Below, one piece after another: positions 147-17,584 of a DNA stretch of 35,591 nt. The translations under genes were made by a program, and so were the position numbers. The stretch spans positions 1 through 35,591 of the forward strand of contig JAFKFJ010000194.1 of NCBI GenBank assembly GCA_017307335.1, given 5' to 3'. Numbering within the stretch: the stretch's first letter is position 1; each line of letters starts with the position of its first letter. A model generated the notes under the pieces. It did not search any database and was not told where the DNA came from. It saw only the letters and a program-made list of their open reading frames with translations. Source of the stretch: Alphaproteobacteria bacterium. Lineage in GTDB: Bacteria; Pseudomonadota; Alphaproteobacteria; Acetobacterales; Acetobacteraceae.

Positions 147-318
147 AGCGGGGCGAGATCGATGTCTCCTCTCTTGATGTTCCGGAACCTGTGCGCGCCG
201 CGATAGAAGCCAGTCCAGCTCTGCAGTGGAAGGCGCAGAACGTCAAAGCCTGGAAATCGGGCGACAAATCGCTGGCGCCGAGGGCGCGACGAGCAGGGCG
301 GTCACGCGGGGAGGCCAC
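147..318. other. Spacer between transposase tail and hsdR
   Basis: This stretch of 172 bp contains no supported gene. It must hold the promoter of the hsd operon, but I see no convincing -35/-10 pair. A Shine-Dalgarno-like GGGGAGG lies at 308-314, four bases before the GTG at 319, and decides the hsdR start. The upstream extension of the frame back to 226 has no similarity to HsdR N-termini. Confidence 0.5.
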
Positions 319-2688
319 GTGAACACTGAAGCGGATACCTGTCGAAAATTCGTCGTTCCGCGCCTGCAAATGGCCGGCTGGGAAAGCGCGCCACACGCGA
401 TCAATGAGCAGCGAACGTTTACCGATGGCCGCGTGATCTTCGTCGGCGGCAAAGCGAAGCGTGGACGCCAAAAGCGCGCCGACTACATCTTGCGCTACCA
501 CGCCGATTATCCGGTTGCGATCGTCGAGGCCAAGGCGGCGTACAAGTCCGCCGCCGACGGCATGCAACAGGCGAAGGACTATGCCGAAATTCTCGGCCTG
601 AAATTCGCCTATGCGACCAATGGCGCGGAGATTCTCGAATTCGACTTTCTCACCGGCCTGGAAACCGAGCGGACCGAATTTCCGACGCCCGCTGAGCTGT
701 GGGGGCGACAACGGGCCGGCCTCGGTCTGACCGATGACGCAGCCGCCGATCGCTTGCTCGCGCCGGGATTCCCCGATCCCGCAAGGCCGCTGCGTTACTA
801 TCAGGAGATCGCCGTCAACCGGGCGCTTCAGGGGGTGCTGACGGGCCAGCGGCGGGCGCTTCTCACGCTCTGCACCGGCTCTGGCAAGACGGCCGTGGCA
901 TTCCAGGTCGCGTGGCGCCTGTGGACGGCCGGATGGAACAAGCGCGGCGACTTCCGCAAACCGAAAATCCTGTTCCTCGCCGACCGTAACATTCTCGTCG
1001 ACGATCCGATGGCCAAGACCTTTGCGCCCTTCGGCGATGCGCGGTTCAAGATCGAGAATGGCGAGATCAGCCACGGCCGCGATATCTATTTCGCGATCTA
1101 CCAGGCGATCGCCAGCGACGAACGGCGGCCGGGTCTGTATCGCGAATATGCGCCGGACTTCTTCGACCTGATCATTGTCGATGAGTGCCACCGCGGCAGC
1201 GCGCGCGACGATAGCAGTTGGCGCGAAATCCTGGAGTATTTCGAGCCGGCCTATCAACTCGGCATGACGGCGACGCCGCTCAGGGAAGACAACCGAGACA
1301 CTTACGCCTATTTCGGCGCGCCACTCTATACCTATTCTCTGGCGCAAGGCATCGCGGACGGCTTCCTGGCGCCCTATCGCGTGCACCGCGTCGTTACGGA
1401 CTATGATGCCGCGGGGTGGAGGCCGACCAAGGGCGAACTCGACCGCTTCGGACGCGAGATCCCCGACGATGAATATCACACCAAGGATTTCGAGCGCGTC
1501 GTCGCGCTGCGCGCGCGCACCGAGGCGATCGCTCGCCACCTTACGCATTTTCTCGCGCAGACCGACCGCTTCGCCAAGACGATCGTTTTCTGCGTGGATC
1601 AGGAACATGCAAGCGAGATGCGGCGTGCGCTTGCCAATCTCAACGCCGATGTCGTTGCAGTCGACCCGGACTATGCCTGCCGCGTGACGGCCGACGAGGG
1701 CGACGTCGGCAAGGGCAAACTCAGCCGGTTTCAGGATGTCGAGACGAAGGTTCCGGTGATCCTGACGACGTCTCAGCTTCTCACCACGGGTGTCGACGCG
1801 CCGACGTGCAAGAACGTCGTGCTGGCACGGGTGGTTGGCTCGATGACGGAGTTCAAGCAGATCGTCGGTCGCGGGACCCGGCTGCGGGAAGACTATGGCA
1901 AGCTCTTCTTCAATATCCTCGACTATACCGGCACGGCGACCGAAAAATTCGCTGATCCGGCCTTCGACGGTGAGCCGACTGTCGAGACGATCACGGAGAT
2001 CGACGCCGAAGGCGCGGTCGTCACCACCCAGGAAGAGGAAAATCCAGCGCCCGAGGCGCCGGACGAGATCGACACGGAACCCGGTGGACTTCCCCCCGAC
2101 GAGGAGCCCGGAGAACCACGCAAACTTTACGTCGATGGCGGCACGGTCGAAGTGGTCGCGCATCTGGTCTACGAACTGGATACGGACGGCAAACGGCTGA
2201 CCTGCAAGAAGCTGACGGACTGGACCGGTGAGAAGGTCCGCACGCTCTATTCGACCGCCGCCAGCTTCCGCGCTGATTGGGCGCTCGCCGACAAGCGTCA
2301 TGCGATCGTCGAGGCGCTCGCTGAACGGGGTATCGACCTCGAGAGCCTGGCCGATGAAGCCGGGCGACCAGAGGATGATCCGTTCGATCTGCTTTGCCAT
2401 CTCGCTTGGAACGCGCCGCTCCGCACGCGACGTGAGCGCGCCGAGCGTCTCAAGCGCGATCGGACCGATTTCTTCGATCGCTATGCCGGCGAGGCGCGGA
2501 CCGTCCTCGAGGCGCTGCTTGAGAAATATGCCGAGCACGGCGCCGCTCAGTTCGTTCTGCCGGGCATTTTGAAGGTGCCGCCGCTGACCGGATTCGGCAA
2601 TCCGAGCGAGATCGCGCGCCGCTTTGGGGGTGCGGACAAGCTTCGCGACGCCGTCAACGAAATGTCCGGCCTGTTGTACGCCGCTTAG
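319..2688 (+). CDS. hsdR: Type I restriction enzyme, HsdR subunit (EcoAI/EcoEI-like)
   Basis: This is the motor and nuclease subunit of a type I restriction-modification complex. It translocates unmethylated DNA using ATP and cleaves away from the recognition site. The 789-residue protein starts at GTG 319, where the N-terminus (NTEADTCRKFVVPRL) matches the family; the frame is open further upstream but looks non-coding. The PD-(D/E)XK nuclease is seen as D55 and E70-A-K72. The superfamily 2 helicase shows Walker A TGSGKT (186-191), D288-E-C-H (motif II), GMTATP (motif III), and motif VI QIVGRGTRL. The C-terminal third is the HsdM/HsdS-contacting region. It is first in an operon with hsdM 13 bp downstream. 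No damage is seen, so it is probably active. Confidence 0.96.
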   Translation: MNTEADTCRKFVVPRLQMAGWESAPHAINEQRTFTDGRVIFVGGKAKRGRQKRADYILRYHADYPVAIVEAKAAYKSAADGMQQAKDYAEILGLKFAYATNGAEILEFDFLTGLETERTEFPTPAELWGRQRAGLGLTDDAAADRLLAPGFPDPARPLRYYQEIAVNRALQGVLTGQRRALLTLCTGSGKTAVAFQVAWRLWTAGWNKRGDFRKPKILFLADRNILVDDPMAKTFAPFGDARFKIENGEISHGRDIYFAIYQAIASDERRPGLYREYAPDFFDLIIVDECHRGSARDDSSWREILEYFEPAYQLGMTATPLREDNRDTYAYFGAPLYTYSLAQGIADGFLAPYRVHRVVTDYDAAGWRPTKGELDRFGREIPDDEYHTKDFERVVALRARTEAIARHLTHFLAQTDRFAKTIVFCVDQEHASEMRRALANLNADVVAVDPDYACRVTADEGDVGKGKLSRFQDVETKVPVILTTSQLLTTGVDAPTCKNVVLARVVGSMTEFKQIVGRGTRLREDYGKLFFNILDYTGTATEKFADPAFDGEPTVETITEIDAEGAVVTTQEEENPAPEAPDEIDTEPGGLPPDEEPGEPRKLYVDGGTVEVVAHLVYELDTDGKRLTCKKLTDWTGEKVRTLYSTAASFRADWALADKRHAIVEALAERGIDLESLADEAGRPEDDPFDLLCHLAWNAPLRTRRERAERLKRDRTDFFDRYAGEARTVLEALLEKYAEHGAAQFVLPGILKVPPLTGFGNPSEIARRFGGADKLRDAVNEMSGLLYAA

Positions 2689-2701
2689 GGAAGATCCGCC
2701 A

Positions 2702-4258
2702 ATGCCCCGTGAGAAGAAGATCAATACGCCGAAAACAACGGCGCAGCGGCTCGACAGCCTCATCAAGTCCGCGCGCAATAAAATGCGCAAGGACCGGGAG
2801 CTGAAGACGGACCTCACGCGGCTGCCCACGCTTACCTGGCTGATGTTCCTCAAATTCGTCGACGATATGGAGCGGGTCCACGAGGATGAGGCGGTGCTCG
2901 CCGACGCGCCGTACCAGCTGCTGATCGATGCGCCTTATCGTTGGCGGGACTGGGCGGCCGATCCGGCGGGCATCACCGGGCCGGACCTGCTGTCGTTCAT
3001 CAATAGCGAGCAGTCCGTTCGCGCGGACGGCACCCAGGGCCCGGGGCTGTTCACCTACCTGCGCGGTCTGCGCGGCAACGGCGCCGGGCGCCAGCGTCGC
3101 GATGTGGTCTCTGCGGTGTTTCGCGATCTGCGGAATTACGCGACCAGCGGCTATGTCCTGCGCGACGTCATCAACCTGATCAACGGTATCCATTTCGACA
3201 GTACCGAGGACATTCAGACCCTCGGCCGGATGTACGAGACGATGTTGCGTGAGATGCGCGATGCCGCAGGGCAAAACGGGGAGTTCTATACGCCGCGCCC
3301 GGTCGTACGGCTCATGGTCGAGATGATCGACCCAAAGCTCGGCGAAGTCGTGCTCGATCCCGCCTGCGGCACGGGCGGCTTCCTGGCTGCTGCCTTCGAC
3401 CATATGAAGCCGCAAGCCGGCACGGTCGAGACGCGCGAGATCCTCCAGCGCAAGACTTTGCGGGGCGGCGAGGATTCCTCGCTTCCCTTCCTGCTCGCGC
3501 AGATGAACCTGCTGTTGCACGGGATCGAGGCGCCCGACATCGAGTTCGGCAACGCCCTGCGCTTCAAGCTGACCGAGATCGGCGAGCGCGACCGGGTCGA
3601 AGTCATCCTGACCAATCCGCCATTTGGCGGCGAGGAAGAAGCCGGCATCCTCACGAATTTTCCGGATGATCGGCGAACCGCCGAAACCGCGCTTCTGTTC
3701 CTGCAGCTCATCATGCGGCGGCTCAAACGCGGCGGTCTCGGGCGCGCCGGCGTCGTCGTGCCGCACGGCATTCTTTTCGGCGACGGCATTGCGGCGCGGA
3801 TCAAGGCCGACCTTCTCGAACAGTTCAATGTTCACACCATCGTCCGGCTGCCAGACGGCACCTTCGCGCCCTACACGGACATCCCCACCAACATCCTCTT
3901 GTTCGACACGTCCGGTCCGACGCGCGACATCTGGTATTGGGAGCAACCGCTTCCGGAGGGCCGGCGGAAATATTCCAAGACGCTCCCGCTGCAGTACGAG
4001 GAATTCGCCGATTGCAGGGCCTGGTGGTCTGATCGGAAGGAAGGACCGCAGGCCTGGAAGGTGTTCGGTCCCGATTTGATCAGGCGCGATGAACAGGGGC
4101 GCGCGGTCGCGGTTGATTTGGATCTGAGAAATCCGCACGCGAAGGCAGTTGTCGATCATCGCATGCCGGCGGAGATCGTCGATAGCGCCATCGCCAAAGA
4201 GCAGCAGGTGCTGGCCGTCTTGAACGAGATCAAGGCGCTTGTGGCGGAGCGCGCCTAG
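2702..4258 (+). CDS. hsdM: Type I DNA adenine methyltransferase subunit HsdM
   Basis: This is the N6-adenine methyltransferase subunit that, with HsdS, methylates the host's own sites and forms the core of the restriction complex. The 518-residue protein begins at ATG 2702, preceded by GGGAAG (2688-2693) at good spacing. An N-terminal helical HsdM_N domain covers about residues 10-160. The SAM-binding motif I is DPACGTGGFL beginning at D219, and the catalytic motif IV is N305-P-P-F. The length is normal for the family. The gene lies 13 bp after hsdR and 3 bp before hsdS, so the three are co-transcribed and probably translationally coupled. Confidence 0.97.
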   Translation: MPREKKINTPKTTAQRLDSLIKSARNKMRKDRELKTDLTRLPTLTWLMFLKFVDDMERVHEDEAVLADAPYQLLIDAPYRWRDWAADPAGITGPDLLSFINSEQSVRADGTQGPGLFTYLRGLRGNGAGRQRRDVVSAVFRDLRNYATSGYVLRDVINLINGIHFDSTEDIQTLGRMYETMLREMRDAAGQNGEFYTPRPVVRLMVEMIDPKLGEVVLDPACGTGGFLAAAFDHMKPQAGTVETREILQRKTLRGGEDSSLPFLLAQMNLLLHGIEAPDIEFGNALRFKLTEIGERDRVEVILTNPPFGGEEEAGILTNFPDDRRTAETALLFLQLIMRRLKRGGLGRAGVVVPHGILFGDGIAARIKADLLEQFNVHTIVRLPDGTFAPYTDIPTNILLFDTSGPTRDIWYWEQPLPEGRRKYSKTLPLQYEEFADCRAWWSDRKEGPQAWKVFGPDLIRRDEQGRAVAVDLDLRNPHAKAVVDHRMPAEIVDSAIAKEQQVLAVLNEIKALVAERA

Positions 4259-4261
4259 GTC

Positions 4262-5404
4262 ATGGCGAGCTTTCCGCTTGTCCCGCTGGGTGAGCTCCTC
4301 ACCTACGCGCCGGATCCGCAGGGCGTGGATCCCGACGGCGCGTATCCGATCGCGGGCATCTATGGCTTTGGTCGCGGGATGATTCAGCGTGCGCCGGTCG
4401 ATGGACGGGAGATAGCCGCCACGCAACTGTTCCGCATCCGGGCGGGCCAGTTCATTTATAGCCGCCTGAAGTCGTTCGAAGGCGCTTATGCGATCGTCTC
4501 GCCCGAGGTCGACGGGTATTTTGTCTCGAACGAATTCCCGACCTTCGATCTGGATTGTGAACGACTCGAGCCCGGATTCCTCGGCTGGTACTTCAAGCAG
4601 GACCGCGTTTGGCAGCAACTAGCCTCTGACGGGAAGGGAATCGGCGCGCGCCGAGAGCGGCTGCATCCCAGACGTCTTCTCGATCATGCCATTCCGTTTC
4701 CTCCGATCGCACAGCAACGTCGGATCATCGCAAAGCTCGACGGCGCGGCGTTGCAACTGAAGTCGATGCGTCGGGCCGCCGATACCGCGCGCGCGGAACT
4801 CGAAGCAACAATGGAGGCGGCGTTTCGGAAGGTGATCGCAGGCGCACCGCGCGTCGCGATGAGCGACATTGCGCCGCTCGTGCGGCGGCCGATCGCGGTC
4901 GATCCGGACGGAAGCTACCCGGAACTTGGCGTGCGCTCGTTCGGCAAGGGAACATTCCGGAAGCCATCACTCTCAGGCCTTGAGGTCGGCAACAAACGCC
5001 TTTTCGCGATTCACGAGGGCGATCTCCTCTTCAATATCGTCTTTGCCTGGGAGGGAGCGGTCGCGCTGGCGAGCGCCGCCGATCATGGCCGGGTCGGATC
5101 CCACAGGTTCCTGACCTGCGTTCCCGACCCTGGGCGGGCGACGCCCCAATTCCTTCTCTATTATTTTCTCACGCCGGAGGGGACGGAGCGTCTCGGCGCT
5201 GCCTCTCCGGGGGGTGCGGGCCGCAACCGCACGCTCGGGCTCAAGGCTTTGGAGTCGATCGCTGTGCCGGCGCCTTCCCTGGACGCGCAATGCTGGTTTG
5301 ATGAACTCCAGCAGAAGGCCGTCGGCGTGCGAGTTGGTCAGTCAGATGTCGCGGGGGAACTGGCTCGTCTGATTCCGGCTCTGCTGCATCAGGCATTCCG
5401 TTGA
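4262..5404 (+). CDS. hsdS: Type I specificity subunit HsdS
   Basis: This subunit reads the bipartite target sequence for the HsdM/HsdR complex. The 380-residue protein has the usual two-half layout. Target recognition domain 1 covers about residues 1-145. A conserved helical spacer follows, with PPIAQQRRIIAKLD (about 145-195). Target recognition domain 2 covers about 200-340, and a second conserved helix pair (SLDAQCWFDELQ...) closes the protein. The second spacer has W-F in place of the more common R-I, a mild divergence. It begins 3 bp after hsdM. The target sequence cannot be predicted from this alone. Confidence 0.95.
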   Translation: MASFPLVPLGELLTYAPDPQGVDPDGAYPIAGIYGFGRGMIQRAPVDGREIAATQLFRIRAGQFIYSRLKSFEGAYAIVSPEVDGYFVSNEFPTFDLDCERLEPGFLGWYFKQDRVWQQLASDGKGIGARRERLHPRRLLDHAIPFPPIAQQRRIIAKLDGAALQLKSMRRAADTARAELEATMEAAFRKVIAGAPRVAMSDIAPLVRRPIAVDPDGSYPELGVRSFGKGTFRKPSLSGLEVGNKRLFAIHEGDLLFNIVFAWEGAVALASAADHGRVGSHRFLTCVPDPGRATPQFLLYYFLTPEGTERLGAASPGGAGRNRTLGLKALESIAVPAPSLDAQCWFDELQQKAVGVRVGQSDVAGELARLIPALLHQAFR

Positions 5405-7547: not shown

Positions 7548-8960
7548 TCATCGCGGTTCGTCCTGGCTCGACGTGTTCACGGCTTTCTCGGGCTCACCGG
7601 ACAGGCGCAGATGCGTGATCGACGCCAGAACCGAGTTCGCCCAGATGGTGCTGCATTCGATCTCGTCGTCCCGCTCGAACCAATGGGTGGCGCCTGGGAT
7701 GAGATCGAAGGGAATGGGGTGGGCCGCCTGCGGATTGTGGAAGACCTCCAGCTCCTGGCACCAGGCTTCCCCCCACGGCCAGAGGGATTGGTATTCCTCG
7801 CTACCGACCGACAGCTCGAAGTCGATTGGCTCGAGCGCGCCCGGTGTCCGATCGAACAGAATTCCGCGCCGGATCATTTCGAGACCGGGCGGCCGCCAGC
7901 CGGCGAGGAAGCCCATGCGGTTGAATTTGGCCAAGGTGCCGGCATTGCTGAAGATGACCGCGGACAGATGCGCAAAGTCGGGATCGCGGAACAGGCCGGC
8001 CGGAATGCCATGTTTGCCGGTGAGGTTGGCGATCGACGTGCCGATCGCGCGGCGATGCGCGCCTTCGCCTTCGACATCGGCGCGCAGGCCATACAGATAG
8101 GAGGGAAGCGCCTCACGGCTCCAGACCATCGAGCCGGATGCGTGGAAGTCCGCGATGGCGATGGCGAAGGATCGGCCCCTGACGTGGTCCATCTCGTGAT
8201 AGTTGCGCTGGAGCTTGCCGCGCAGCGTCTTGGCGAAACGCTCGGCGGGCGCGCCGGTCAGCCGCTCGGTGCGGTCCTGCGGCGCGTGCACCCAGTCGCC
8301 GATCCCGCCCGCGCGCGGGGTTTCGGAATTGGCGGTGACCGCCTCGATCCAGCAGTCGAGGCCGTCCTTCTCGATCCGGAAGTCGGGCGATACGTGGTCC
8401 TGGCGGACGATCAGGCCCTGCTCGCGGAAGCAGGCGAGCAGATAGAGCTCGAAGAGCCGCGAGGCGAAGTTGCTGGTCTGAAGATCACTGACGAAATTGG
8501 CGTCCGGATTGGGAAGCGCGAGATAGCATTCGCCCACCGCCATGAGCGCGGGCAGATGGCTCGCCGTGCTGGCAAGAAGCTCGAACTCGGGCGAGATGCC
8601 GCGCGCGCCTGGCTGCATCAGGGGCGGACGGCGCCGCGCGCCGCGCGGAAGCGGTTCAGGCGGATCGCTGCCGCGCATGCTGATGCTGAGATGGTCGAGC
8701 GCTGTCTCGGGGGTAGAGAACGGGCCGCCTTCGTCGACACGCACCCAGAGATGATCGACGCGCCGGCGCATGGCCAAGGTGGTGAACGCCCCGCGCTCGG
8801 GATCGAGGAGGATGCAGCCGCAGGCGCTGCCGCGGCCGACCCTGTAGACGCCGAAAATGTGCGACGGGTCGAAGTTCGGTCCGCGCTCCAGCGACAGCGC
8901 ATAGAGCTCGAACTGCCGTTCGCTGATCGGCGTGATCAGTTGCGGGTCATCGACGGCCAT
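7548..8960 (-). CDS. Uncharacterised protein with PD-(D/E)XK-like core
   Basis: I do not recognise a named family for this 470-residue protein. A central segment has the layout of a PD-(D/E)XK fold. A helix RLFELYLLACFREQGLIV carries the early Glu. Then comes PDF with D193, and 13 residues later W-I-E206-A-V. The lysine expected two residues after the Glu is absent (Val), so catalysis is doubtful or uses a moved Lys. The same pattern occurs in the next gene (D91, E104), which suggests common descent. The C-terminus carries FHNPQAAHPIPFDLIPGATH and HWFERDDEIECST. ATG 8960 follows GAGG seven bases upstream; the longer upstream frame overlaps the neighbouring gene and looks non-coding. It is third in the minus-strand operon. 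Confidence 0.6.
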   Translation of the reverse strand: MAVDDPQLITPISERQFELYALSLERGPNFDPSHIFGVYRVGRGSACGCILLDPERGAFTTLAMRRRVDHLWVRVDEGGPFSTPETALDHLSISMRGSDPPEPLPRGARRRPPLMQPGARGISPEFELLASTASHLPALMAVGECYLALPNPDANFVSDLQTSNFASRLFELYLLACFREQGLIVRQDHVSPDFRIEKDGLDCWIEAVTANSETPRAGGIGDWVHAPQDRTERLTGAPAERFAKTLRGKLQRNYHEMDHVRGRSFAIAIADFHASGSMVWSREALPSYLYGLRADVEGEGAHRRAIGTSIANLTGKHGIPAGLFRDPDFAHLSAVIFSNAGTLAKFNRMGFLAGWRPPGLEMIRRGILFDRTPGALEPIDFELSVGSEEYQSLWPWGEAWCQELEVFHNPQAAHPIPFDLIPGATHWFERDDEIECSTIWANSVLASITHLRLSGEPEKAVNTSSQDEPR

Positions 8961-9027
8961 CGTCACGCCTCGCGGCGTGGAGGGCGAAAGGCCGGCGGCT
9001 CCGACCCGTGCTGGACAAGCAGCGTCC

Positions 9028-9954
9028 TCATCGCGCCTCCGCCACGGCCGCCGGGGCGAGGATGTCGTTGCTCTCCCATCCGTGGCCGTGCGCGGTGGTG
9101 ACGAACTCGCAATCCCAGATTCCCCAGTTCGTCGGCAGGGGAACCTGCGCGAGCGGGTTATGGACATAGGTGATCGGCCGGATCTGGCGCGACAAGTTGC
9201 CGAGCCCGACGCGCGACCAGATGACCCCTGAGATGTCGGCGAAGCGCTCGTCGAGAAACGCCGTGCGCGGGATGGGATTGCGTTCGCGGTCGATGAGCGG
9301 AGCCGCGTGGAACCCTTCCTCGACGACGTCCCCGGTCGCGCGATCGATGGTGATATAGGCATCGCCGATCGGGAAGAGGGTGGTCATGATCAGCGGCAGG
9401 GGCCGCTCGGCGACATAGACCCCGAACCGGCTTGCGCTGATGGCGACGATCCGCGTGTCCTCGGGCGCGATCACGCCCTGTTGGATATAGCGGGCGATCT
9501 TTTGGGCCTTGGTCCAGAAGGCGCCTGAGGTCCGCAACTGCGCCTGGCGGATCGGTGCGGCGGCGAGTCCGCCGCCCTCGTTGATAGGGATGGGCCGCAC
9601 GATCTGGTCGGGACCCGGCGCGCCTTCGTCGGGTGCGATGGCTTCGATCCAGATGCGACGACCCTGTTCGAGGACGCAAAGGTCAGGCTGGCCGCCCTGG
9701 CGCTGGCGGTCGATGACGGGCAACAACATGCGACCGGCCTCGAGCAAGGCGCAGCCGAGATACATCTCCCAGAAACGGCCCTCGACGTCGCGGGCGAAGC
9801 CCTGCGGAAAATCAGGGTCGGCATAGGGCTCATAAATTGCCCACATCGCCTCGATCCGATCGTGAAGCTGCCGTTCGAAGGGCGATTCCGCAGCCTTCAG
9901 ATTCTCGAAGCCGCGATCGAGATTGGGGCCGTCGACGTCGAAAAGACGGGTCAT
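9028..9954 (-). CDS. Uncharacterised PD-(D/E)XK-like protein, distant relative of the neighbour
   Basis: This 308-residue hypothetical protein is of the type often seen near restriction genes. About residues 60-110 give the signature R-F-W-E-M-Y-L-x-C-A-L-L-E-A-G, then QPDL with D91, then R-I-W-I-E104-A-I-A-P after 13 residues. This matches the core of a PD-(D/E)XK fold, with Ile where Lys is expected. The C-terminal part (EFVTTAHGHGW and nearby) has no motif I know. It starts at ATG 9954, 13 bp after the stop of the first gene of the operon, and ends 67 bp before the 470-residue relative. A nuclease or nuclease-derived sensing role is inference. Confidence 0.6.
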   Translation of the reverse strand: MTRLFDVDGPNLDRGFENLKAAESPFERQLHDRIEAMWAIYEPYADPDFPQGFARDVEGRFWEMYLGCALLEAGRMLLPVIDRQRQGGQPDLCVLEQGRRIWIEAIAPDEGAPGPDQIVRPIPINEGGGLAAAPIRQAQLRTSGAFWTKAQKIARYIQQGVIAPEDTRIVAISASRFGVYVAERPLPLIMTTLFPIGDAYITIDRATGDVVEEGFHAAPLIDRERNPIPRTAFLDERFADISGVIWSRVGLGNLSRQIRPITYVHNPLAQVPLPTNWGIWDCEFVTTAHGHGWESNDILAPAAVAEAR

Positions 9955-9967
9955 CGTCCTGTCTCTG

Positions 9968-10522
9968 TCAGGCGCTGCGCAGCATCCGCTCGATCCGGAC
10001 GCGGTGATAGCCGTGGGCGTGCACCTGCTGCCGGAGCTGTCGGATGTCGCTGACCCCGAAGGCCACGGCCGCCTTCAGCGGGCTGGCGAAGGTCGCGTAG
10101 TAGGTCCAGCGCGCACCAGCGGGCAGGGCTGCGTTCTGGCGGCGGTCGGTGATGACGACATCGCGCGGATCGCGGCTGTTCCGGAAGGCGTGGAACGTGA
10201 TCCAGTCCGGCCGCCGATAGCGCGTGGCCTTGCTGAAGGGCACCGACTGCACCTTCACGTCGCTCTGGTCGAGCACCCAGTCGCGCTGCTCCAAGATCTG
10301 GCGCACCATGTGGCCGACCATCTGCTTGACGCGGTCGGCCAGCACGTTCTCACGGAATTCCGCCAGGAGCTGCTCCTCGATGCCCTCGACCGCGGGCTTG
10401 CCCAGCTCCGAGGCGGTCTCCAGGCGGGCGACGCTTTCGGGCCGGATAAGAAAGGCCCAGATGCGCTGACCGAGATCGGACGCGTAGAGCGATGCGAACT
10501 TTTCGGGGCTGTAGGTCAACAT
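9968..10522 (-). CDS. Uncharacterised 184-residue protein, first gene of the minus-strand operon
   Basis: I do not recognise this protein. It begins MLTYSPEKFASLYASDLGQR at ATG 10522, with a near-perfect ribosome site AAAGGAGG eight bases upstream; the frame is open to 10678 but that start would cross the divergent gene. The N-terminal half is helical with EEQLLAEFRENVLADRVKQM. The C-terminal half contains DWITFHAFRNSRDPRDVVIT, and ends basic (YHRVRIERMLRSA). No membrane segment or signal peptide is visible. As leader of a six-gene operon it could be a structural or sensing partner of the nuclease-like proteins that follow; this is inference only. Confidence 0.65.
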   Translation of the reverse strand: MLTYSPEKFASLYASDLGQRIWAFLIRPESVARLETASELGKPAVEGIEEQLLAEFRENVLADRVKQMVGHMVRQILEQRDWVLDQSDVKVQSVPFSKATRYRRPDWITFHAFRNSRDPRDVVITDRRQNAALPAGARWTYYATFASPLKAAVAFGVSDIRQLRQQVHAHGYHRVRIERMLRSA

Positions 10523-10534
10523 GAGCGGCCCTCC

Positions 10535-10573
10535 TTTACCGGGCAAATATGGCCGGTTATAAGTGCCTGTCAA
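10535..10573. promoter_or_regulatory. Overlapping divergent promoter candidates
   Basis: On the plus strand TTTACC (10535-10540), 17 bases, then TATAAG (10558-10563) fits a sigma-70 promoter for the nuclease/TIR/HEPN operon. On the minus strand TTGACA (complement of 10568-10573) stands 16-18 bases from AT-rich CATATTTG (about 10551-10544), fitting a promoter for the six-gene operon. The two overlap, so the divergent operons could be co-regulated from one site. Assigned by eye. Confidence 0.45.
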
Positions 10574-10598
10574 TGCCGGTGCACGATTGGGCGCTCCG

Positions 10599-11258
10599 AT
10601 GCCGGAATGGGGGAGGCTGGACTTGGACTTCGAGGATCTCGTCACCGCGCTAGCGCCGCCGCCGAACCGCGCAGGCAAATCCGATGGCGGCCATGAGCAC
10701 CATCTCTACGAAGGCGCCGTGATGGTCGCTTACGCCATGCATCTTCTGCGCACGGCGAATGCGCAGCATGTGCGCATCCATCCCGACGGCGAGCATGGCA
10801 AGCAATTCGATTTTGCGGGCTGGCTACAGCGTCGGGAATTCACCAAGGTCTCCAGCCTCGGCAGCACGGCCTATGGCGGCGTCTATCGGAACGCCGCGGG
10901 CCAAACGATAACCGTCCACCCCAAGTCCGGCCTTGGTGATGTCGTGGCGGAAATCGGCGACCGCATCATTTCGGCGGAGTGCAAGGGCGGCATCATCAAC
11001 ACGCGGCATCCGGGGCAGGTGTCCCGACTCTACAAGGGGCTGTGCGAGACGGTCGGGTTGCTGATGGCGACGCCGTCGCCGGGCCGACAGGTTGCGGTCG
11101 TGCCTCTGACCGAGGGCACTTTGCGCCTGGCCGAGCGGCTCGCGCCGCGCTGCACGCTGGCCGGTATCGAGATCGCGCTTGTCGGCAGCCGCGGCGAGGT
11201 CATGGACGTCAAGCCGTCGCTGGGGAGCGAACGGGGCCGGGAGGGGAACGACAGATGA
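10599..11258 (+). CDS. PD-(D/E)XK nuclease-like protein, first gene of TIR-HEPN operon
   Basis: The protein (219 residues from ATG 10599) has a plausible restriction-type core: D114 (GLGDVVAEIGD), then 13 residues later E127-C-K129 in SAECKGGII, which gives the D...ExK triad intact. The helix after it (HPGQVSRLYKGLCETVGLLM) fits the fold. Start choice is open. A GTG at 10563 lies inside the candidate -10 box and is unlikely. ATG 10599 has a weak ribosome site. TTG 10623 has a strong GGGGGAGG (10609-10616) six bases upstream. The stop overlaps the ATG of the TIR gene (ATGA, 11255-11258), so translation is coupled. I infer a DNA- or RNA-cleaving or nuclease-derived sensing role. Confidence 0.7.
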   Translation: MPEWGRLDLDFEDLVTALAPPPNRAGKSDGGHEHHLYEGAVMVAYAMHLLRTANAQHVRIHPDGEHGKQFDFAGWLQRREFTKVSSLGSTAYGGVYRNAAGQTITVHPKSGLGDVVAEIGDRIISAECKGGIINTRHPGQVSRLYKGLCETVGLLMATPSPGRQVAVVPLTEGTLRLAERLAPRCTLAGIEIALVGSRGEVMDVKPSLGSERGREGNDR

Positions 11259-12367
11259 GAAGAGTACTGACGGTCGGCGTGACCTATGCCGGCGATGCGA
11301 TCGAAGGAGTGGAGATCGACAATCTCGGTCTGTGCCGACCCGAAGTGGATCGCGAGCGAGCCGCCTATCCACTCTACGAATATGACACGATCATCATCAA
11401 TCCCGAGAGCTACTCGCATTTCCTGTTCGGCAAGGCCGGCGAGTTCTCGAACGAGCTCTACGAGCTTGGCAAGCTGAAGGGGCAAAAAGACCGGTACGAT
11501 ATCGATTCCGCGTTCGACGCCGAGGATCGGCGGAAGGAAATGGAGGCGGCGATCGCGGACGGCGCCACCGTCATTTGGTGCCTCTCCGAGCCGAAGCGGG
11601 TGAACTTCTACGGCTATCGCGAAACCCATCTTGGCTATGTGGCGCCGAAGGTGGCGAGCTTCGTCAAACGCTCGGAGCTGCTCGTGAAAAAGGGACGCAG
11701 GATGGGGCCCGTCGACCCGGACAGTCCGTTCGCGCGCTATTTCGACGTGCTGTCACAGACCGGCGGCTGGACGCTTTGCCTGTCGGATCCCGGCGACGGC
11801 TATGCATCTGTCGCCGCGACGCCGGAGGGCTATAGCCTGGGCGGACGGGTGACGCTCGGGACGACAACGGGGTGGCTGCTGACGCCGCCGACGTCGCAGG
11901 AAGCGCAAAACCAGCTCGTGCGCGACAGCCTGGCGCTGGAAAAGGCCGACCCCGCGCACGAGAAGTATCACGGCATCTTCCTGAGCCACACCGGCGTCGA
12001 TAAGCCGTTCGTGCGCCAGCTGCGCAAGGATCTCCTCGCCCACGGCGTGCCGCGCGTCTGGCTGGACGAAGCCGAGATCGATATCGGCGACTCGCTGATC
12101 GCCAAGATCGACGAGGGCATGAAGCTCAGCCGCTACATCGCCGTCGTCCTGTCGAAGAAATCTATCGACGCCCTTTGGGTGAAGAAGGAGCTCGACGTCG
12201 CAATGAACCGGGAGATCGCCAGCGGCGAGGTGGTGGTGTTGCCGTTGCTCTATGAGGAGTGCGAGCTGCCTGGCTTCCTGAAAGGCAAGCTCTACGCCGA
12301 TTTCTCCAAGCCCGAAGACTATGAAACTGTGCTGGGCAAGCTCTTGCGGCGGCTTCGGATCGCCTAA
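11255..12367 (+). CDS. TIR-domain protein with an unrecognised N-terminal domain
   Basis: The 370-residue protein has two parts. Residues 1-230 contain YDTIIINPESYSHFLFGKA and VIWCLSEPKRVNFYGYRETH; I know no family for this, and it may be the sensing part. Residues from Y238 form a TIR domain: YHGIFLSHTGVDK (box 1), VWLDEAEIDIGDSL (box 2 region), SRYIAVVLSKKS, and W308-V-K-K-E312-L. E312 is at the position of the catalytic Glu in NAD-cleaving TIRs. Bacterial TIR proteins commonly deplete NAD or make cyclic ADP-ribose signals upon phage infection. The start overlaps the preceding nuclease-like gene by ATGA, and the stop overlaps the next start by TAATG. TIR identity is firm; NADase activity is inferred from the Glu. 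Confidence 0.88.
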   Translation: MRRVLTVGVTYAGDAIEGVEIDNLGLCRPEVDRERAAYPLYEYDTIIINPESYSHFLFGKAGEFSNELYELGKLKGQKDRYDIDSAFDAEDRRKEMEAAIADGATVIWCLSEPKRVNFYGYRETHLGYVAPKVASFVKRSELLVKKGRRMGPVDPDSPFARYFDVLSQTGGWTLCLSDPGDGYASVAATPEGYSLGGRVTLGTTTGWLLTPPTSQEAQNQLVRDSLALEKADPAHEKYHGIFLSHTGVDKPFVRQLRKDLLAHGVPRVWLDEAEIDIGDSLIAKIDEGMKLSRYIAVVLSKKSIDALWVKKELDVAMNREIASGEVVVLPLLYEECELPGFLKGKLYADFSKPEDYETVLGKLLRRLRIA

Positions 12368-13701
12368 TGCGCGAAGCTTCGACCGGTCCGAGCGCGGCCA
12401 TGCTCACGGCGCTGACGGACTTATGGCGACTGCGCCCCCCGGGGCCCGACAATATCCTCGTGCATCCCGCGTTCGAGCGGCTGCGCGAGGCTTGCCGTGA
12501 AGGCTACCCGAACGCTGGCAAAAAAGGTCCGGCATTTGCGCTCTCGACGGCGCTGAGGGCTTTAGGCCTGCCGTGTCACCTGCAGAAGGACACGGCCCAT
12601 CTCGCGTTGCCGGTGGAGGAGGCGGCCAAGGATCTCGATGCGGGGCTGCGCGCCACCCAAGCCAAGCGCATCCATCTCGCGCCGCTTGATTTGGCCGCCG
12701 ACCTGCCGCCGCTTGCGTTCGGTTCGGCGGAGATGCGCCGGCTGACGGCGGACGAGCTGCGCGTCTTGGTCGATGTGCCCCGGCTGAAGCGACACTATCA
12801 GCGTCAGGATTTCGACGCGGAGCGCTTCTCGGAATTCCACTGGCTGATAGTCGAAGAAATCGTGCCGCTCGACCAGGAGCCTGAAGCCCGGGCGGTCCCG
12901 GTGCTGTTCATGGACCTGAGCCAGGACCTCGGGCGGATCGAACCCCACAAGGGCCGCTTTCCCGTTGCGTTAGAGGAAGCGCTGTTCTTTCTCCTGCTGG
13001 CGCCGTGGGAGCGCTGGTCGACGATGGCGGAAGTCGACTGGCGCGGCTTCCGCGTGCCGTGGGTCTACACCGTCGACAGCGACATTATCGTCCGTCCCAA
13101 CCCGCCACCGTCGCCCGACACGTTGAGCTGGGAGGACCGGATCTACGACGACGGTTATGGCGGGACCTATGAGGAGGAGCGACCGGTCGAACTGCGGCTG
13201 GAGGATGCCGCCGCAACCGAATTGCCCGTCTGGGACCAGAGCCGATGGATGATCGTGGAGCAGGCAAAGAAGTCGGTCCTGTTCGAGACGCCTATCGCGC
13301 ACTTTCTGGTCCGTGCGTTTCTAGCCGAAGGCGTGGACGAGTTCCTCGCGCACATCACCACGATCGAAGCTGCCTTGGGGCTACGCGCGGATCATCAGAA
13401 GAGTTTCCGCGTCGCGCCGGATCGCCACAAGGGGATGCGCGCCACGAACAGGATGCGAGGGCGCGTCGCGGGGCTTCTCGGCGATCGCCGCTACGCCGAC
13501 CAATATGAGCGGCTGTTCAACGTGCGAAGCGCTTTCCTGCATGGCCGCGCCATGACGGATATATCGACAGAGGAACGCGTGATGGCCCGATCGTTGGCTC
13601 GTGAGGTCGTGGAAGCGCTGATCCTCGCCACGCAGACTCCGACCCCATCCCGCGAGGAGTTCCTCGATGGCCTCCTCGATAAAGGCGCCCCGCTGCTCTA
13701 G
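12367..13701 (+). CDS. HEPN-like protein (R-x4-H), third gene of TIR operon
   Basis: A 444-residue protein. The last 120 residues are helical and contain R387-S-A-F-L-H392-G-R in FNVRSAFLHGRAM, the R-x4-H motif of HEPN-fold proteins, in a setting like the ApeA-type HEPN family (helix EFLAHITTIEAALGLRADHQ before it). The N-terminal 300 residues carry no motif I recognise, though LRALGLPCHLQKDTAHL recalls host-factor-like segments. HEPN proteins of this kind are RNases that cleave tRNA or other RNA in abortive defence. The ATG shares one base with the stop of the TIR gene, so the two are made together. RNase function is inferred from the motif and operon. Confidence 0.7.
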   Translation: MREASTGPSAAMLTALTDLWRLRPPGPDNILVHPAFERLREACREGYPNAGKKGPAFALSTALRALGLPCHLQKDTAHLALPVEEAAKDLDAGLRATQAKRIHLAPLDLAADLPPLAFGSAEMRRLTADELRVLVDVPRLKRHYQRQDFDAERFSEFHWLIVEEIVPLDQEPEARAVPVLFMDLSQDLGRIEPHKGRFPVALEEALFFLLLAPWERWSTMAEVDWRGFRVPWVYTVDSDIIVRPNPPPSPDTLSWEDRIYDDGYGGTYEEERPVELRLEDAAATELPVWDQSRWMIVEQAKKSVLFETPIAHFLVRAFLAEGVDEFLAHITTIEAALGLRADHQKSFRVAPDRHKGMRATNRMRGRVAGLLGDRRYADQYERLFNVRSAFLHGRAMTDISTEERVMARSLAREVVEALILATQTPTPSREEFLDGLLDKGAPLL

Positions 13702-13856: not shown

Positions 13857-14559
13857 AGGAAGTTGAGGTGACAGGCGCCGCCGGCACCATATCGACGAAA
13901 ACGTGCTTCAGCCGGATGACGTGGCTGCCATTCTGAACCAACGCGCCGTCTAAAACAGCCAAGGCCAGGGAATGTGCCGCTTCGGCCGTCAGCCCCGCGG
14001 ACTCTCCGTAGGTTTTCCGAATGCGCGCATCGACGGCATCAACCACGGCTGAAGCCGGAAGCGCAAGCACATAACCCAGCATGAAACCCCAATCATGCCC
14101 GGCGGCGTACTGACCAGTAGCAAAGCGCGCGACGCCTTTCGTGACATAACTCGCATTCAGGGTAGGATCACTTGCGTGCACACGCTTACATTCAACAGCG
14201 ACATAGGCGTCCTCATCGCCAAACTGATGCAGGAACTGCAAAGTGATGTCGATCCGACCTAGGATGGTCGGATCGTCGTTCGCCATATCTTCAAGCTCAT
14301 GCTCACCACGAAGTTGAAGGTTCGTCAGCCCGAGCGATTTCTTGACTCGGCGCATTGCCTTTCGGACCATGATCGTGGTCGGCACTTCGAGCATGCCGGG
14401 GACAACGTGTGGTCTAGCTTCGTCGCAGCCTCTGCAAAGAAGATCGAGGACGGTGGCGATCTGATCGCCCGACAGGGCGAAAGCGGGAAGCCCGAATGGA
14501 ACGTCAGGCGTGAGCAACGGCGTTCCCTCTCCGCAGCCAATGGTCTGCGAGGATGACAT
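13855..14559 (-). CDS. PD-(D/E)XK nuclease partner of the adjacent methyltransferase
   Basis: A 234-residue protein with a complete-looking PD-(D/E)XK core: D104 in GRIDITLQF, and E123-C-K125-R in AYVAVECKRVHAS, followed by a helix with ASYVTKGVARFATG. It is probably the restriction or repair-type endonuclease that works with the methyltransferase upstream. The ATG at 14559 would overlap the methyltransferase gene by 56 bp and has a poor ribosome site. A TTG at 14517 (codon 15) is preceded by GGAGAGGG at good spacing and overlaps by only 14 bp, so it may be the true start. Target and mode of action cannot be read from the sequence. Confidence 0.75.
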   Translation of the reverse strand: MSSSQTIGCGEGTPLLTPDVPFGLPAFALSGDQIATVLDLLCRGCDEARPHVVPGMLEVPTTIMVRKAMRRVKKSLGLTNLQLRGEHELEDMANDDPTILGRIDITLQFLHQFGDEDAYVAVECKRVHASDPTLNASYVTKGVARFATGQYAAGHDWGFMLGYVLALPASAVVDAVDARIRKTYGESAGLTAEAAHSLALAVLDGALVQNGSHVIRLKHVFVDMVPAAPVTSTS

Positions 14560-17500
14560 CGGCGTCGTTCAAGCCCGCAGTACGGGTCCAGTTTCGGATT
14601 TCGCTGGGCTTCAGAATGAAAAGGTCATCTGATCCATAAAGCCTGATCTGCCGCCGTTCGTTGAGGTAGGGCGGTATCGGGGCATCGAATTGCCCCCGCA
14701 AAAGCGCCCCCAAAGCGTCAAGTTCGGCTGGGTCGCCGTCTCGGATGATCGATTTCTTACCAGGGCCGCCCTGCGCCATAACGAACCGAACGGCGGTAAT
14801 GCCGGCAACGCCAGAAGCCAGATCCGCTTTGGTCAGCCGCGTCGGATAAATGACAGCTTCAAGGTGACGCTCGTTGCGAGCGCGAAGGTAGGTGTCGACC
14901 GTTTGCACGACCTGGCCGGCATAGGCTCGCAAAGCCGCTGCATCTGGTGGTGTGATAAGACCGGCGCGTTCGCTTCGATTCTCAAAAACAAGGTAGCGCG
15001 CGCGTTCGACGCTGTCGCGGGCGAGAGTTCGCTCGTCCCGGTCCAAGTCGTACACATCGAAAACCGCTTCATCGAGCGCCTTGAGACTGGCGGAGTTCGA
15101 TGGATCGGCCGCCGCCGCCTCTTCGGCTTCGATCAGCGCTGTGAACAAGGCGGGATCGATCCTGGTCAGATCGGGAATGCGCAGCGACAGGAGATCATGA
15201 GGCTCCACCGTCGGGCGCTCGAGGCCCCAGGTGGGCCCGCCAAGTGCAAACTGAAAGGCTGTGAGGCAGGAGTTCAATATTCCGCTGAGCGCGTAGGCGT
15301 ATTTGACGTCCGCGCCGGCGAAGGACACGCCATAGAAGTTTTGGGTGTAGAGCACGTCGCGCGGACTGACGGCCGCGCTGTAGCGTCCACGCTCGGCGCC
15401 CGAGGCATTGCCCACCTTGGAACAGAGCAAGATTGGCCCGCGGAAAATCGACTCGCGCCGGGGCCGATGTAGCGTTTTGTGCGTGAAGTCATCGAGCGAT
15501 GCGTAATCGAGGCGGAACGCCGAGAACTTCTCAGGTGTGACGACCTTAAGGCGCCGATAACCGGCGGGAGGCGTGTTTGCGTCGCCGCGGACCTGGAAAC
15601 CTTGGCCTCGGTTGGCAGACGGGTCACGTTCCAGCGTCTGCAGCAGCATGTCAAAACGTGGAAAATCCTTTTCAAGCCGCTCGATTAGCCAACCGTCACG
15701 AACCGTTCCGAACGTCGCCGCTTTGAGAAACGGCGGGGTCGCCAGTACGCGTTTGAGCGGGACGGAACGGATTTCCCCCGGGCCGAGACCGAACACGCCC
15801 GTGCGTCGGAAATCCGGTGACCACGGAATGGAGCCGACGAGCATGCGGTCGGCTTGCGGACCAAGACCGCAACGAGCGAAAAAAAGCAGCGCCGGACCGA
15901 GTGCATCAGGGAAGAGATCTTCCCGGCGAAGATAGGAGAGATTGATCAAAGCGACAGGTGCGAGGCGCTCCAAGAGGTGGTTTCGCGCCGCGACAGCGTG
16001 AACATCTTTGGAAAAGAAGGGCGTCGCTTTCATAACCATGCCGACGCGGCCGTGTTCTCCGGCAAGCTCCGCACCGAGCGACAGAAATGCTTGGTCCGGG
16101 CTCCGCCTGGGACGCAGCGTTGATGTGTCGGAAGTGCGCCGCCTTTCGGTGCCGCCTTCTTTCCTGACGAACGTCCATGGGGGATTGCCGACCACCGCGT
16201 CGAACGCTCGGCTAGTGATCGCTGCGGGCAAATTGTCGCCGAGCGAGTCCGCTTCGAACAGCGTGGTGTCGATCAAGCGATCGAATTTCAGATCACGGAT
16301 GTCGCTGATCGGCTGCTCGTCGAGTTCCAGAGCGGCGAGATATAGGCTGAACGCAGCGATACCGAGCGCCGCGCGATTGATATCGACGCCAAAAAGCTGG
16401 CCATAGAGGATACGCCGGACGAGTTCTCGGCTGGCGGGTTTCCCTTCCGCCGCGCGCCAGACCAGCCGGCGAAACGCTTCCACGAGGAAGGCTCCCGACC
16501 CACATGCTGGGTCGATAACCGCCCCATGGGACGGCAGACCCTCGAAAACGGGATCGAGTGTAAGATGGACGAGCTCAACGGGCGTGTAATGAAGACCCTG
16601 CGATCGCGCCTCGTCCGCGGCGCTCGTTCGCGCGAATTGTTGATAGATCGAGCTGATGAGATCGACCGGAATGGCGTTGAAGCGGAAGCGAAAAAGGCGT
16701 CCCTGTCCAAGGCGCTCAGGGATCAGGCTGCGCCCCTCCACGAAATCGCGGATCAGCTCCAGATGCTGAGGTGTTAATTGTTCACGCTCGGCCCCGGGGT
16801 CGTCCATCGGGAACAGGTCGCCGTTGAAGGTCGTCCGCAGCCAGTCGAACAAGGCAAATGCGCTCGAGGGCGTTGCGAACATCGCACTGAGATCTGCGGG
16901 CATGTCCGCCGGCAAGAAAGGCTGGGCAATTCCCCGATCCAGCAGATACCAGGTGAAGATGCAGCGCCCGACAAACCGCTGCGCGATGTCGCGCGCGTGA
17001 ACCAAGGCGCGCTCGGTTTGCGGACCGCCGAGCGCCGTCAGGCGGTCCTCCAGCGCAGAGATCTCAGCTAGCAGCTCCCGGTCAACGCGATGCCGCCGAT
17101 TGATCCGGGACCCGATTGGACTGGTCCAAAACGCGCCCGTCTCGGTGGCGATGCGACCACATTGAGCGTCCAGCACGCGAAGGCGCTCGCCGGACTGGAG
17201 AACGAAACGGTCCAGGGCCTGCGGCGCCTGCGCTGCTTGTTCGTCAGTTGGCTCGGGTGAGGCATAGCAGTCGTAAAGGCGGATATCCGTAGGCGTGATA
17301 ATCCACAGCAGCGGCGCGACCCCGACGTTCCACGCCGCTTCATGCCACCGACGAAGATCCTCATCGGAAGGTTCGGCTCCGCCTGCGTCCTTGAAGATGC
17401 TGGTAGGGGCATTCTGCGCCGTGAAGACGGCATCCGCCTGCAGTCCGACTCGCTCGTCCGAAAACACGGCGCGCATCTTGGCCGCGCGAGGATCGCCTGC

Positions 17501-17584
17501 CGGCACCAACCCCGGTGCTGGAAGGCCGTTGGAGGCGAGATAGCCGGTCGCCTCCAGCGCCTGTTTGTAGGCAGCGCTGGTCAA
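14504..17584 (-). CDS. Large N6-adenine-type DNA methyltransferase (Eco57I/TaqI-like class)
   Basis: A 1026-residue protein. Residues about 1-330 are an N-terminal domain with LQADAVFTAQ and ITPTDIRLYD, which recalls the N-terminal region of Eco57I-like enzymes but shows no clear D...ExK. The methyltransferase core starts with HYTPVELV, then D358-P-A-C-G-S-G-A-F-L (motif I) and N467-P-P-W (motif IV). This is the gamma-class layout with a long C-terminal target recognition part (LLCSKVGN, ALSGILNS, and similar TaqI-like pieces up to about residue 850). It begins with an ATGA overlap on the stop of the HTH gene and ends overlapping a nuclease gene. I infer a modification-restriction pair with cleavage supplied by the partner, not by this protein. 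Confidence 0.88.
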   Translation of the reverse strand: MTSAAYKQALEATGYLASNGLPAPGLVPAGDPRAAKMRAVFSDERVGLQADAVFTAQNAPTSIFKDAGGAEPSDEDLRRWHEAAWNVGVAPLLWIITPTDIRLYDCYASPEPTDEQAAQAPQALDRFVLQSGERLRVLDAQCGRIATETGAFWTSPIGSRINRRHRVDRELLAEISALEDRLTALGGPQTERALVHARDIAQRFVGRCIFTWYLLDRGIAQPFLPADMPADLSAMFATPSSAFALFDWLRTTFNGDLFPMDDPGAEREQLTPQHLELIRDFVEGRSLIPERLGQGRLFRFRFNAIPVDLISSIYQQFARTSAADEARSQGLHYTPVELVHLTLDPVFEGLPSHGAVIDPACGSGAFLVEAFRRLVWRAAEGKPASRELVRRILYGQLFGVDINRAALGIAAFSLYLAALELDEQPISDIRDLKFDRLIDTTLFEADSLGDNLPAAITSRAFDAVVGNPPWTFVRKEGGTERRRTSDTSTLRPRRSPDQAFLSLGAELAGEHGRVGMVMKATPFFSKDVHAVAARNHLLERLAPVALINLSYLRREDLFPDALGPALLFFARCGLGPQADRMLVGSIPWSPDFRRTGVFGLGPGEIRSVPLKRVLATPPFLKAATFGTVRDGWLIERLEKDFPRFDMLLQTLERDPSANRGQGFQVRGDANTPPAGYRRLKVVTPEKFSAFRLDYASLDDFTHKTLHRPRRESIFRGPILLCSKVGNASGAERGRYSAAVSPRDVLYTQNFYGVSFAGADVKYAYALSGILNSCLTAFQFALGGPTWGLERPTVEPHDLLSLRIPDLTRIDPALFTALIEAEEAAAADPSNSASLKALDEAVFDVYDLDRDERTLARDSVERARYLVFENRSERAGLITPPDAAALRAYAGQVVQTVDTYLRARNERHLEAVIYPTRLTKADLASGVAGITAVRFVMAQGGPGKKSIIRDGDPAELDALGALLRGQFDAPIPPYLNERRQIRLYGSDDLFILKPSEIRNWTRTAGLNDADVILADHWLRRGNAVAHA

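Follow-up and report, generated by a model that had tools for sequence, protein, structure and literature searches.

The three genes described here, P1, P2 and P3, lie within a 35,591-nucleotide stretch of an Acetobacteraceae genome (contig JAFKFJ010000194.1, positions 1 to 35,591 of the forward strand; hereafter the window). They are co-directional on the + strand and encode a nuclease-like protein, a TIR protein and a protein of a HEPN family that recurs in other genomes with different partner genes (Table 1). Successive genes overlap by 4 bases and then by 1 base. A first-pass annotation of this DNA had described ATGA and TAATG overlaps joining the three genes, and both are present; the residues that it listed as intact (D114, E127 and K129 of P1, E312 of P2, R387 and H392 of P3) were likewise all found in the sequence. 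All intact P2-P3 pairs that were compared (about 25 loci, about 18 of them non-identical) overlap by 1 or 4 bases, and since these overlaps are found again in further genomes they go beyond chance. Judged by these junctions, P1, P2 and P3 are translationally coupled. Comparison with diverged loci gave ratios of nonsynonymous to synonymous substitution (dN/dS) of about 0.03-0.12 for P1, P2 and P3 alike, and thus strong purifying selection.

Table 1. Features of the operon and of the divergent operon to its left.
Feature	Coordinates	Strand	Basis
P1, 211 aa, PD-(D/E)XK-like by motif only	10623..11258	+	D114, E127-x-K129 (219-aa numbering), conserved start
P1/P2 overlap, ATGA	11255..11258	+	P1 stop / P2 start; same in L042 and L043
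P2, 370 aa, N-domain (1-225) and C-terminal TIR (about 240-363), W308-x3-E312	11255..12367	+	TIR_2 profile, Foldseek, invariant residues
P2/P3 overlap, TAATG	12365..12369	+	P2 stop / P3 start; divergence to several relatives jumps here
P3, 444 aa, 300-aa N-domain and C-terminal HEPN (about 301-430)	12367..13701	+	model, structural matches, invariant motif
c3|P1 divergent intergenic region	10523..10622		conserved c3 promoter/leader (TTGACAG...CTTATAACCGGCCATATTTGCCCGGTAAAGGAG, minus strand)
c3, 184 aa, no assigned function	9968..10522	-	head-to-head with P1, divergent pair conserved
c2, 308 aa, weakly PD-T7-5-like	9028..9954	-	profile match 3.6e-6
c5, PD-T7-1 homologue	7548..9026	-	profile match 4.7e-84

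The structural model of P3, built from a 42-row alignment, reached a predicted local distance difference test (pLDDT) value of 92.4. When residues 301-428 were compared using VIA-align, the 12 best rows were all HEPN proteins (Z 4.5-6.7, with the next, unrelated row at 4.0), and they include toxin HEPN, Csm6, AbiV and sacsin. These Z values are middling for a helical bundle, and the assignment is based on the agreement among the rows together with the motif. HEPN domains are recognized by an Rx4-6H motif that ends helix 3 and an acidic residue in helix 2 (PMC3710099). In P3, R387-x4-H392 is found at the end of the helix formed by residues 374-391 and the acidic pair D324/E325 in the preceding helix (322-337); both are invariant in the 42 homologues. 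The HEPN nature claimed in the first-pass annotation is borne out by the matches of the model and the invariant Rx4H, and on this basis P3 is a HEPN protein and a predicted RNase. Foldseek returned no significant match for P3 in PDB or among viral models, and no usable match was identified in Pfam, NCBIfam, PADLOC or PDB profiles. HEPN_Apea and ApeA_NTD1 gave no match at E values up to 1 when 16 members of the P3 family were searched in Pfam and 52 in PADLOC. P3 represents a HEPN family without a name in the libraries searched, and its genes are found repeatedly next to defence systems, both known and candidate.

P2 was also correctly recognized at first pass as carrying a TIR domain, which is evident from Pfam (TIR_2, E 1.1e-26, 94.2 bits against a cut-off of 28), PDB sequence search and Foldseek. 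Both PDB sequence search and Foldseek place AbTir, BtTir and PdTir as the closest solved relatives of its TIR. W308 and E312 are invariant in a 19-row alignment, as expected of the W-x3-E catalytic glutamate, and P2 is a TIR-domain protein with predicted NADase activity. The match to the ThsB-type TIR model PF08937 (16.1 bits) is below its cut-off of 21.2, and that to the 282-aa PADLOC profile PDC-S66 covers the TIR part only (P2 226-333 aligned to 136-242) rather than the whole profile. Residues 1-225, the N-domain, match nothing in the family libraries, and in the model of P2 the TIR alone was resolved (pLDDT of the N-domain below 50), so that the model points to neither a sensor nor a housekeeping fold. 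Weak matches of the N-domain in G905, G1030 and G1032 were rejected, as they look like chance and the open reading frames there are unrelated.

The sequence GDVV...AECKGG of P1 shows a pattern that we take to be typical of PD-(D/E)XK nucleases, and it is kept in homologues down to 36% identity. The D and the E-x-K motif occur in most members of the family (T replaces K129 in one homologue, and D114 is changed to N in one distant fragment). No match to P1 was found in Pfam, NCBIfam, PADLOC or PDB profiles, so that the protein is described here as PD-(D/E)XK-like by motif only. Comparison by hhalign detected no relationship between P1 and the c8, c9 and c3 families, or between c3 and c8 or c9. 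P1 probably starts at TTG 10623 and not at ATG 10599, making the product 211 instead of 219 amino acids, since the ribosome site GGGGAGG and TTGGACTTC are common to many loci and ATG 10599 is not, and since the annotated homologue on a Shinella plasmid begins at the same residue.

Among 84,980 species genomes scanned, 76 further P3 loci were found, which makes 77 with the window. The hosts include many Alphaproteobacteria, as well as Pseudomonas, Achromobacter and Halomonas. The distribution of P3 is patchy (9 of the order's 395 genomes), with plasmid and mobile locations. The full P1-P2-P3 set is found at 20 of the 77 loci, mostly in Alphaproteobacteria and usually head-to-head with the c3-c2-PD-T7-1 operon. 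The remainder include P1-P3 (6 loci), P2-P3 (4), c3-P3 (3) and a damaged TIR-P3 pair (1), and at 43 loci neither P1 nor a TIR gene is directly upstream of P3. Along the P3 tree, the TIR switches between present and absent at least seven times. A pair in G1047 has 63% (TIR) and 43% (P3) identity to that of the window and still a 4-base overlap, and by this comparison the TIR-P3 pairing is old. The pair occurs without P1 on Agrobacterium Ti plasmids; on these (L011, 4128-7338) a gene for a trypsin-like peptidase is found just upstream of TIR-P3 and ABC-three-component genes downstream.

Searched for independently of P3 in these 395 genomes, the TIR N-domain turned up in four: the window, one genome with a truncated P3 behind the TIR, one with P1-TIR only, and one with the TIR alone beside an integrase. 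The last of these (L124, 5509-8531) is also near a primase-like gene, and the setting resembles a phage satellite or prophage remnant. The TIR occurs without P3 in L123, L124 and L023. L023 (5001-9021) is on a Pseudomonas veronii plasmid, where genes for a ThsB-type TIR, one further TIR and a SLOG protein come after the TIR homologue. P1 was met with other cargo as well. In IMG/VR we identified one P1 locus and no relative of P2 or P3; P3 was not found in phages. TIR and P3 are linked, but, since each occurs without the other, neither requires the other. This distribution, in which P3 lacks an upstream TIR at 52 of 77 loci, gives no support to P1-TIR-P3 as a fixed system.

The two genes also differ in their history. 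Between the window and L042, DNA identity is 83-91% from the PD-T7-1 homologue through P2 and 73-82% from the start of P3, and synonymous divergence (dS) rises from about 0.45 for P1 and P2 to 1.19 for P3. The P2/P3 junction is thus likely a recombination seam, and the simplest reading of these values is an exchange of P3 at this point.

The partners of P3 have been exchanged as well. Different genes, unrelated to one another, precede it with a stop codon that its start codon overlaps or abuts: a TIR gene in about 25 loci, a gene for a 245-aa protein in 16, and, elsewhere, P1, a gene for a 200-aa protein and one for an nSTAND3 NTPase of 1327-1340 aa. An RNTLAHG (or RNTLAYG) motif is present in the 200-aa family, and the 245-aa family gave a weak match to RT-associated HEPN. 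P3 may therefore be paired with other HEPN-like proteins in L068-L070, L073, L074, L079, L082 and L014. In Rhizobium/Agrobacterium loci, P3 is encoded about 56 bp behind Gabija genes, a complete GajA-GajB pair in L024 (GajA 4e-215, GajB 6e-171) and L089, and GajB in L093. In two Achromobacter loci, L015 (1.2e-85) and L102, it is encoded behind a homologue of PifA (a KAP NTPase). Behind P3 in L024 is an FRG-domain gene. RES-domain genes (NAD+ consumers) adjoin P3 in at least five loci of separate lineages (L012, L016, L018, L103 and L105), and that of L105 carries HEPN/RES N-terminal domain 1.

Taken together, the sequence comparisons favour separable modules over one three-part machine. We tentatively prefer to read the operon as a mosaic of abortive-infection modules, in which P3 would be a portable HEPN suicide RNase and a second line behind first-line genes. 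P2 would be a self-contained TIR enzyme, regulated by an N-terminal domain of its own and consuming NAD+ once activated, and P3 an RNase under a large N-terminal control domain. Coupling of stop and start codons would ensure that P3 is made in step with the preceding protein, and if the first line were overwhelmed or blocked, P3 would stop translation or kill the cell, as PrrC does behind PrrI. In the window, the coupled first-line protein would be the TIR enzyme, with P1 ahead of it. What the first-pass annotation described as two suicide-type effectors in one operon is retained as two predicted enzymes, TIR and HEPN, whose pairing is conserved. The infection-response operon it proposed keeps these domains, the coupling and a defence-island setting, but is not supported as one fixed set of three parts.

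The precedent is that of PrrC, a HEPN RNase encoded with the first-line restriction system PrrI as its fallback, and HEPN genes beside restriction-modification genes have been proposed as second-line weapons (PMC3710099). The predicted role of P3 is similar. Unlike PrrC, P3 is without an ABC ATPase domain, and it has several partners, most of them other than restriction-modification genes. If P3 were a guard or a shared second line, the PrrC idea, formed on a single restriction system, would apply to many defences. That it is a portable guard, wired through stop/start coupling behind five or more unrelated proteins (TIR, the nuclease-like protein, two small HEPN-like families and the STAND NTPase), also positioned behind Gabija and PifA, and firing once the preceding protein is disabled, seems doubtful to us. 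The loci offer a natural experiment, with the same predicted RNase behind different upstream partners and several loci complete, including those of Agrobacterium Ti plasmids.

Several points weigh against a mosaic with P3 as second line. The 300-aa N-domain of P3 is without an identified fold that could point to a trigger. Several of the P3 neighbourhoods could be coincidence, since defence islands gather unrelated defence genes. In addition, no upstream gene is closely coupled to P3 at about 25 of the 77 loci, and thus coupling is not required for every P3.

The close fit of P3 to each of several preceding partners, by an overlap of 1 or 4 bases, and the retention of the TIR-P3 pair in the divergent G1047, could instead mean that the protein encoded just upstream is a sensor or restraint of P3. 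In that case the TIR, P1, the 245-aa protein and the NTPase would be alternative regulators and P3 the single effector, in a toxin-antitoxin-like or sensor-effector arrangement. We consider this unlikely, given that many genomes have P3 but no partner coupled to it, that the TIR occurs without P3 at the three loci named above, and that no recognised domain is common to the partners.

Bacterial operons often contain short overlaps, and the three could be independent defence genes under one promoter in an island, with the overlaps a product of ordinary operon compaction. Each gene is found alone or in other company, and P3 and P2 differ in history, as this would predict. The tight coupling of P3 to several unrelated upstream genes, and its retention in all intact TIR-P3 pairs, speak against it, and we consider it less probable than regulation by the upstream protein.

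Signalling of the Thoeris type is improbable. Here the TIR would make an ADP-ribose-derived signal that is bound by the N-domain of P3, switching on the HEPN RNase. Bacterial TIRs are able to make cyclic ADP-ribose signals (PMC10022894 and PMC11204291), and the P2 homologue of Pseudomonas veronii adjoins the TIR and SLOG genes of L023 described above, one of them of the ThsB type. P2-P3 also resembles Thoeris (ThsB/ThsA) in that a TIR enzyme is encoded with a second effector gene. However, the partner of P2 is a HEPN protein and not a SIR2-SLOG, Macro or membrane ThsA, and P2 scores below the cut-off of PF08937. No SLOG, Macro, SIR2 or other ThsA-type domain was found in P3 or its scanned neighbours, and the operon is not classed as Thoeris. 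P3 is, moreover, mostly without a TIR, and the TIR also occurs without P3. A housekeeping or metabolic operon is very improbable: the defence function is so far predicted only and the TIR N-domain is without an identified family, but the patchy distribution, the plasmid and mobile locations and the defence neighbours throughout argue against it.

Like P3, ApeA has an N-domain of about 300 aa rich in conserved aromatics, then a C-terminal HEPN with Rx4H, and is often a single gene; ApeA/BMEI1217 genes are found inside restriction-modification operons in some lineages (PMC3710099). Unlike ApeA, no member of the P3 family matches the Pfam ApeA model, other HEPN models or the PADLOC ApeA model, the P3 N-domain opens with about 95 residues of helices where ApeA-NTD1 is by description mostly strands, and P3 is coupled to a partner gene in many genomes. 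P2 is close in sequence and fold to AbTir, BtTir, PdTir and single-gene TIR defence proteins, with the catalytic W-x3-E, but differs from them in its N-domain and in being encoded in an operon with HEPN. Gabija, PifA and PD-T7-1 are known defence genes beside P3 or in the same block, as neighbours and not relatives of P1, P2 or P3. We found no paper describing the TIR-P3 pair.

To the left of P1, c3, c2 and the PD-T7-1 homologue form a tight minus-strand operon (10522 to 7548) divergent from P1. PD-T7-1 has been classed as a PD-(D/E)XK protein (PMC10952713). The six-gene block recurs in many loci, and on this evidence the conserved unit reaches further left than P1 to take in c3, c2 and the PD-T7-1 homologue. 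The divergent c3-P1 pair is kept also where P3 is on the c3 side (L071, L075 and L014). The c3 promoter/leader CTTATAACCGGCCATATTTGCCCGGTAAAGGAG (within 10523-10598 of the window) is near-identical in 18 loci (the window and 17 others), with either downstream arrangement; it is conserved almost base for base, far above the flanking spacer, which may indicate a promoter under regulation. The c3|P1 spacer was also considered for an operator palindrome, an idea that was dropped, as the half-sites match poorly.

A type I-like restriction-modification set at 226-5404 (+), identified from reading translations, and a type IIG-like enzyme at 14504-17584 (-), identified by PADLOC, flank the operon, and the window is thus a dense defence island. 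Defence genes identified in the window and related loci are PD-T7-1, type I and type IIG restriction-modification, AbiE, OLD and TrlF.

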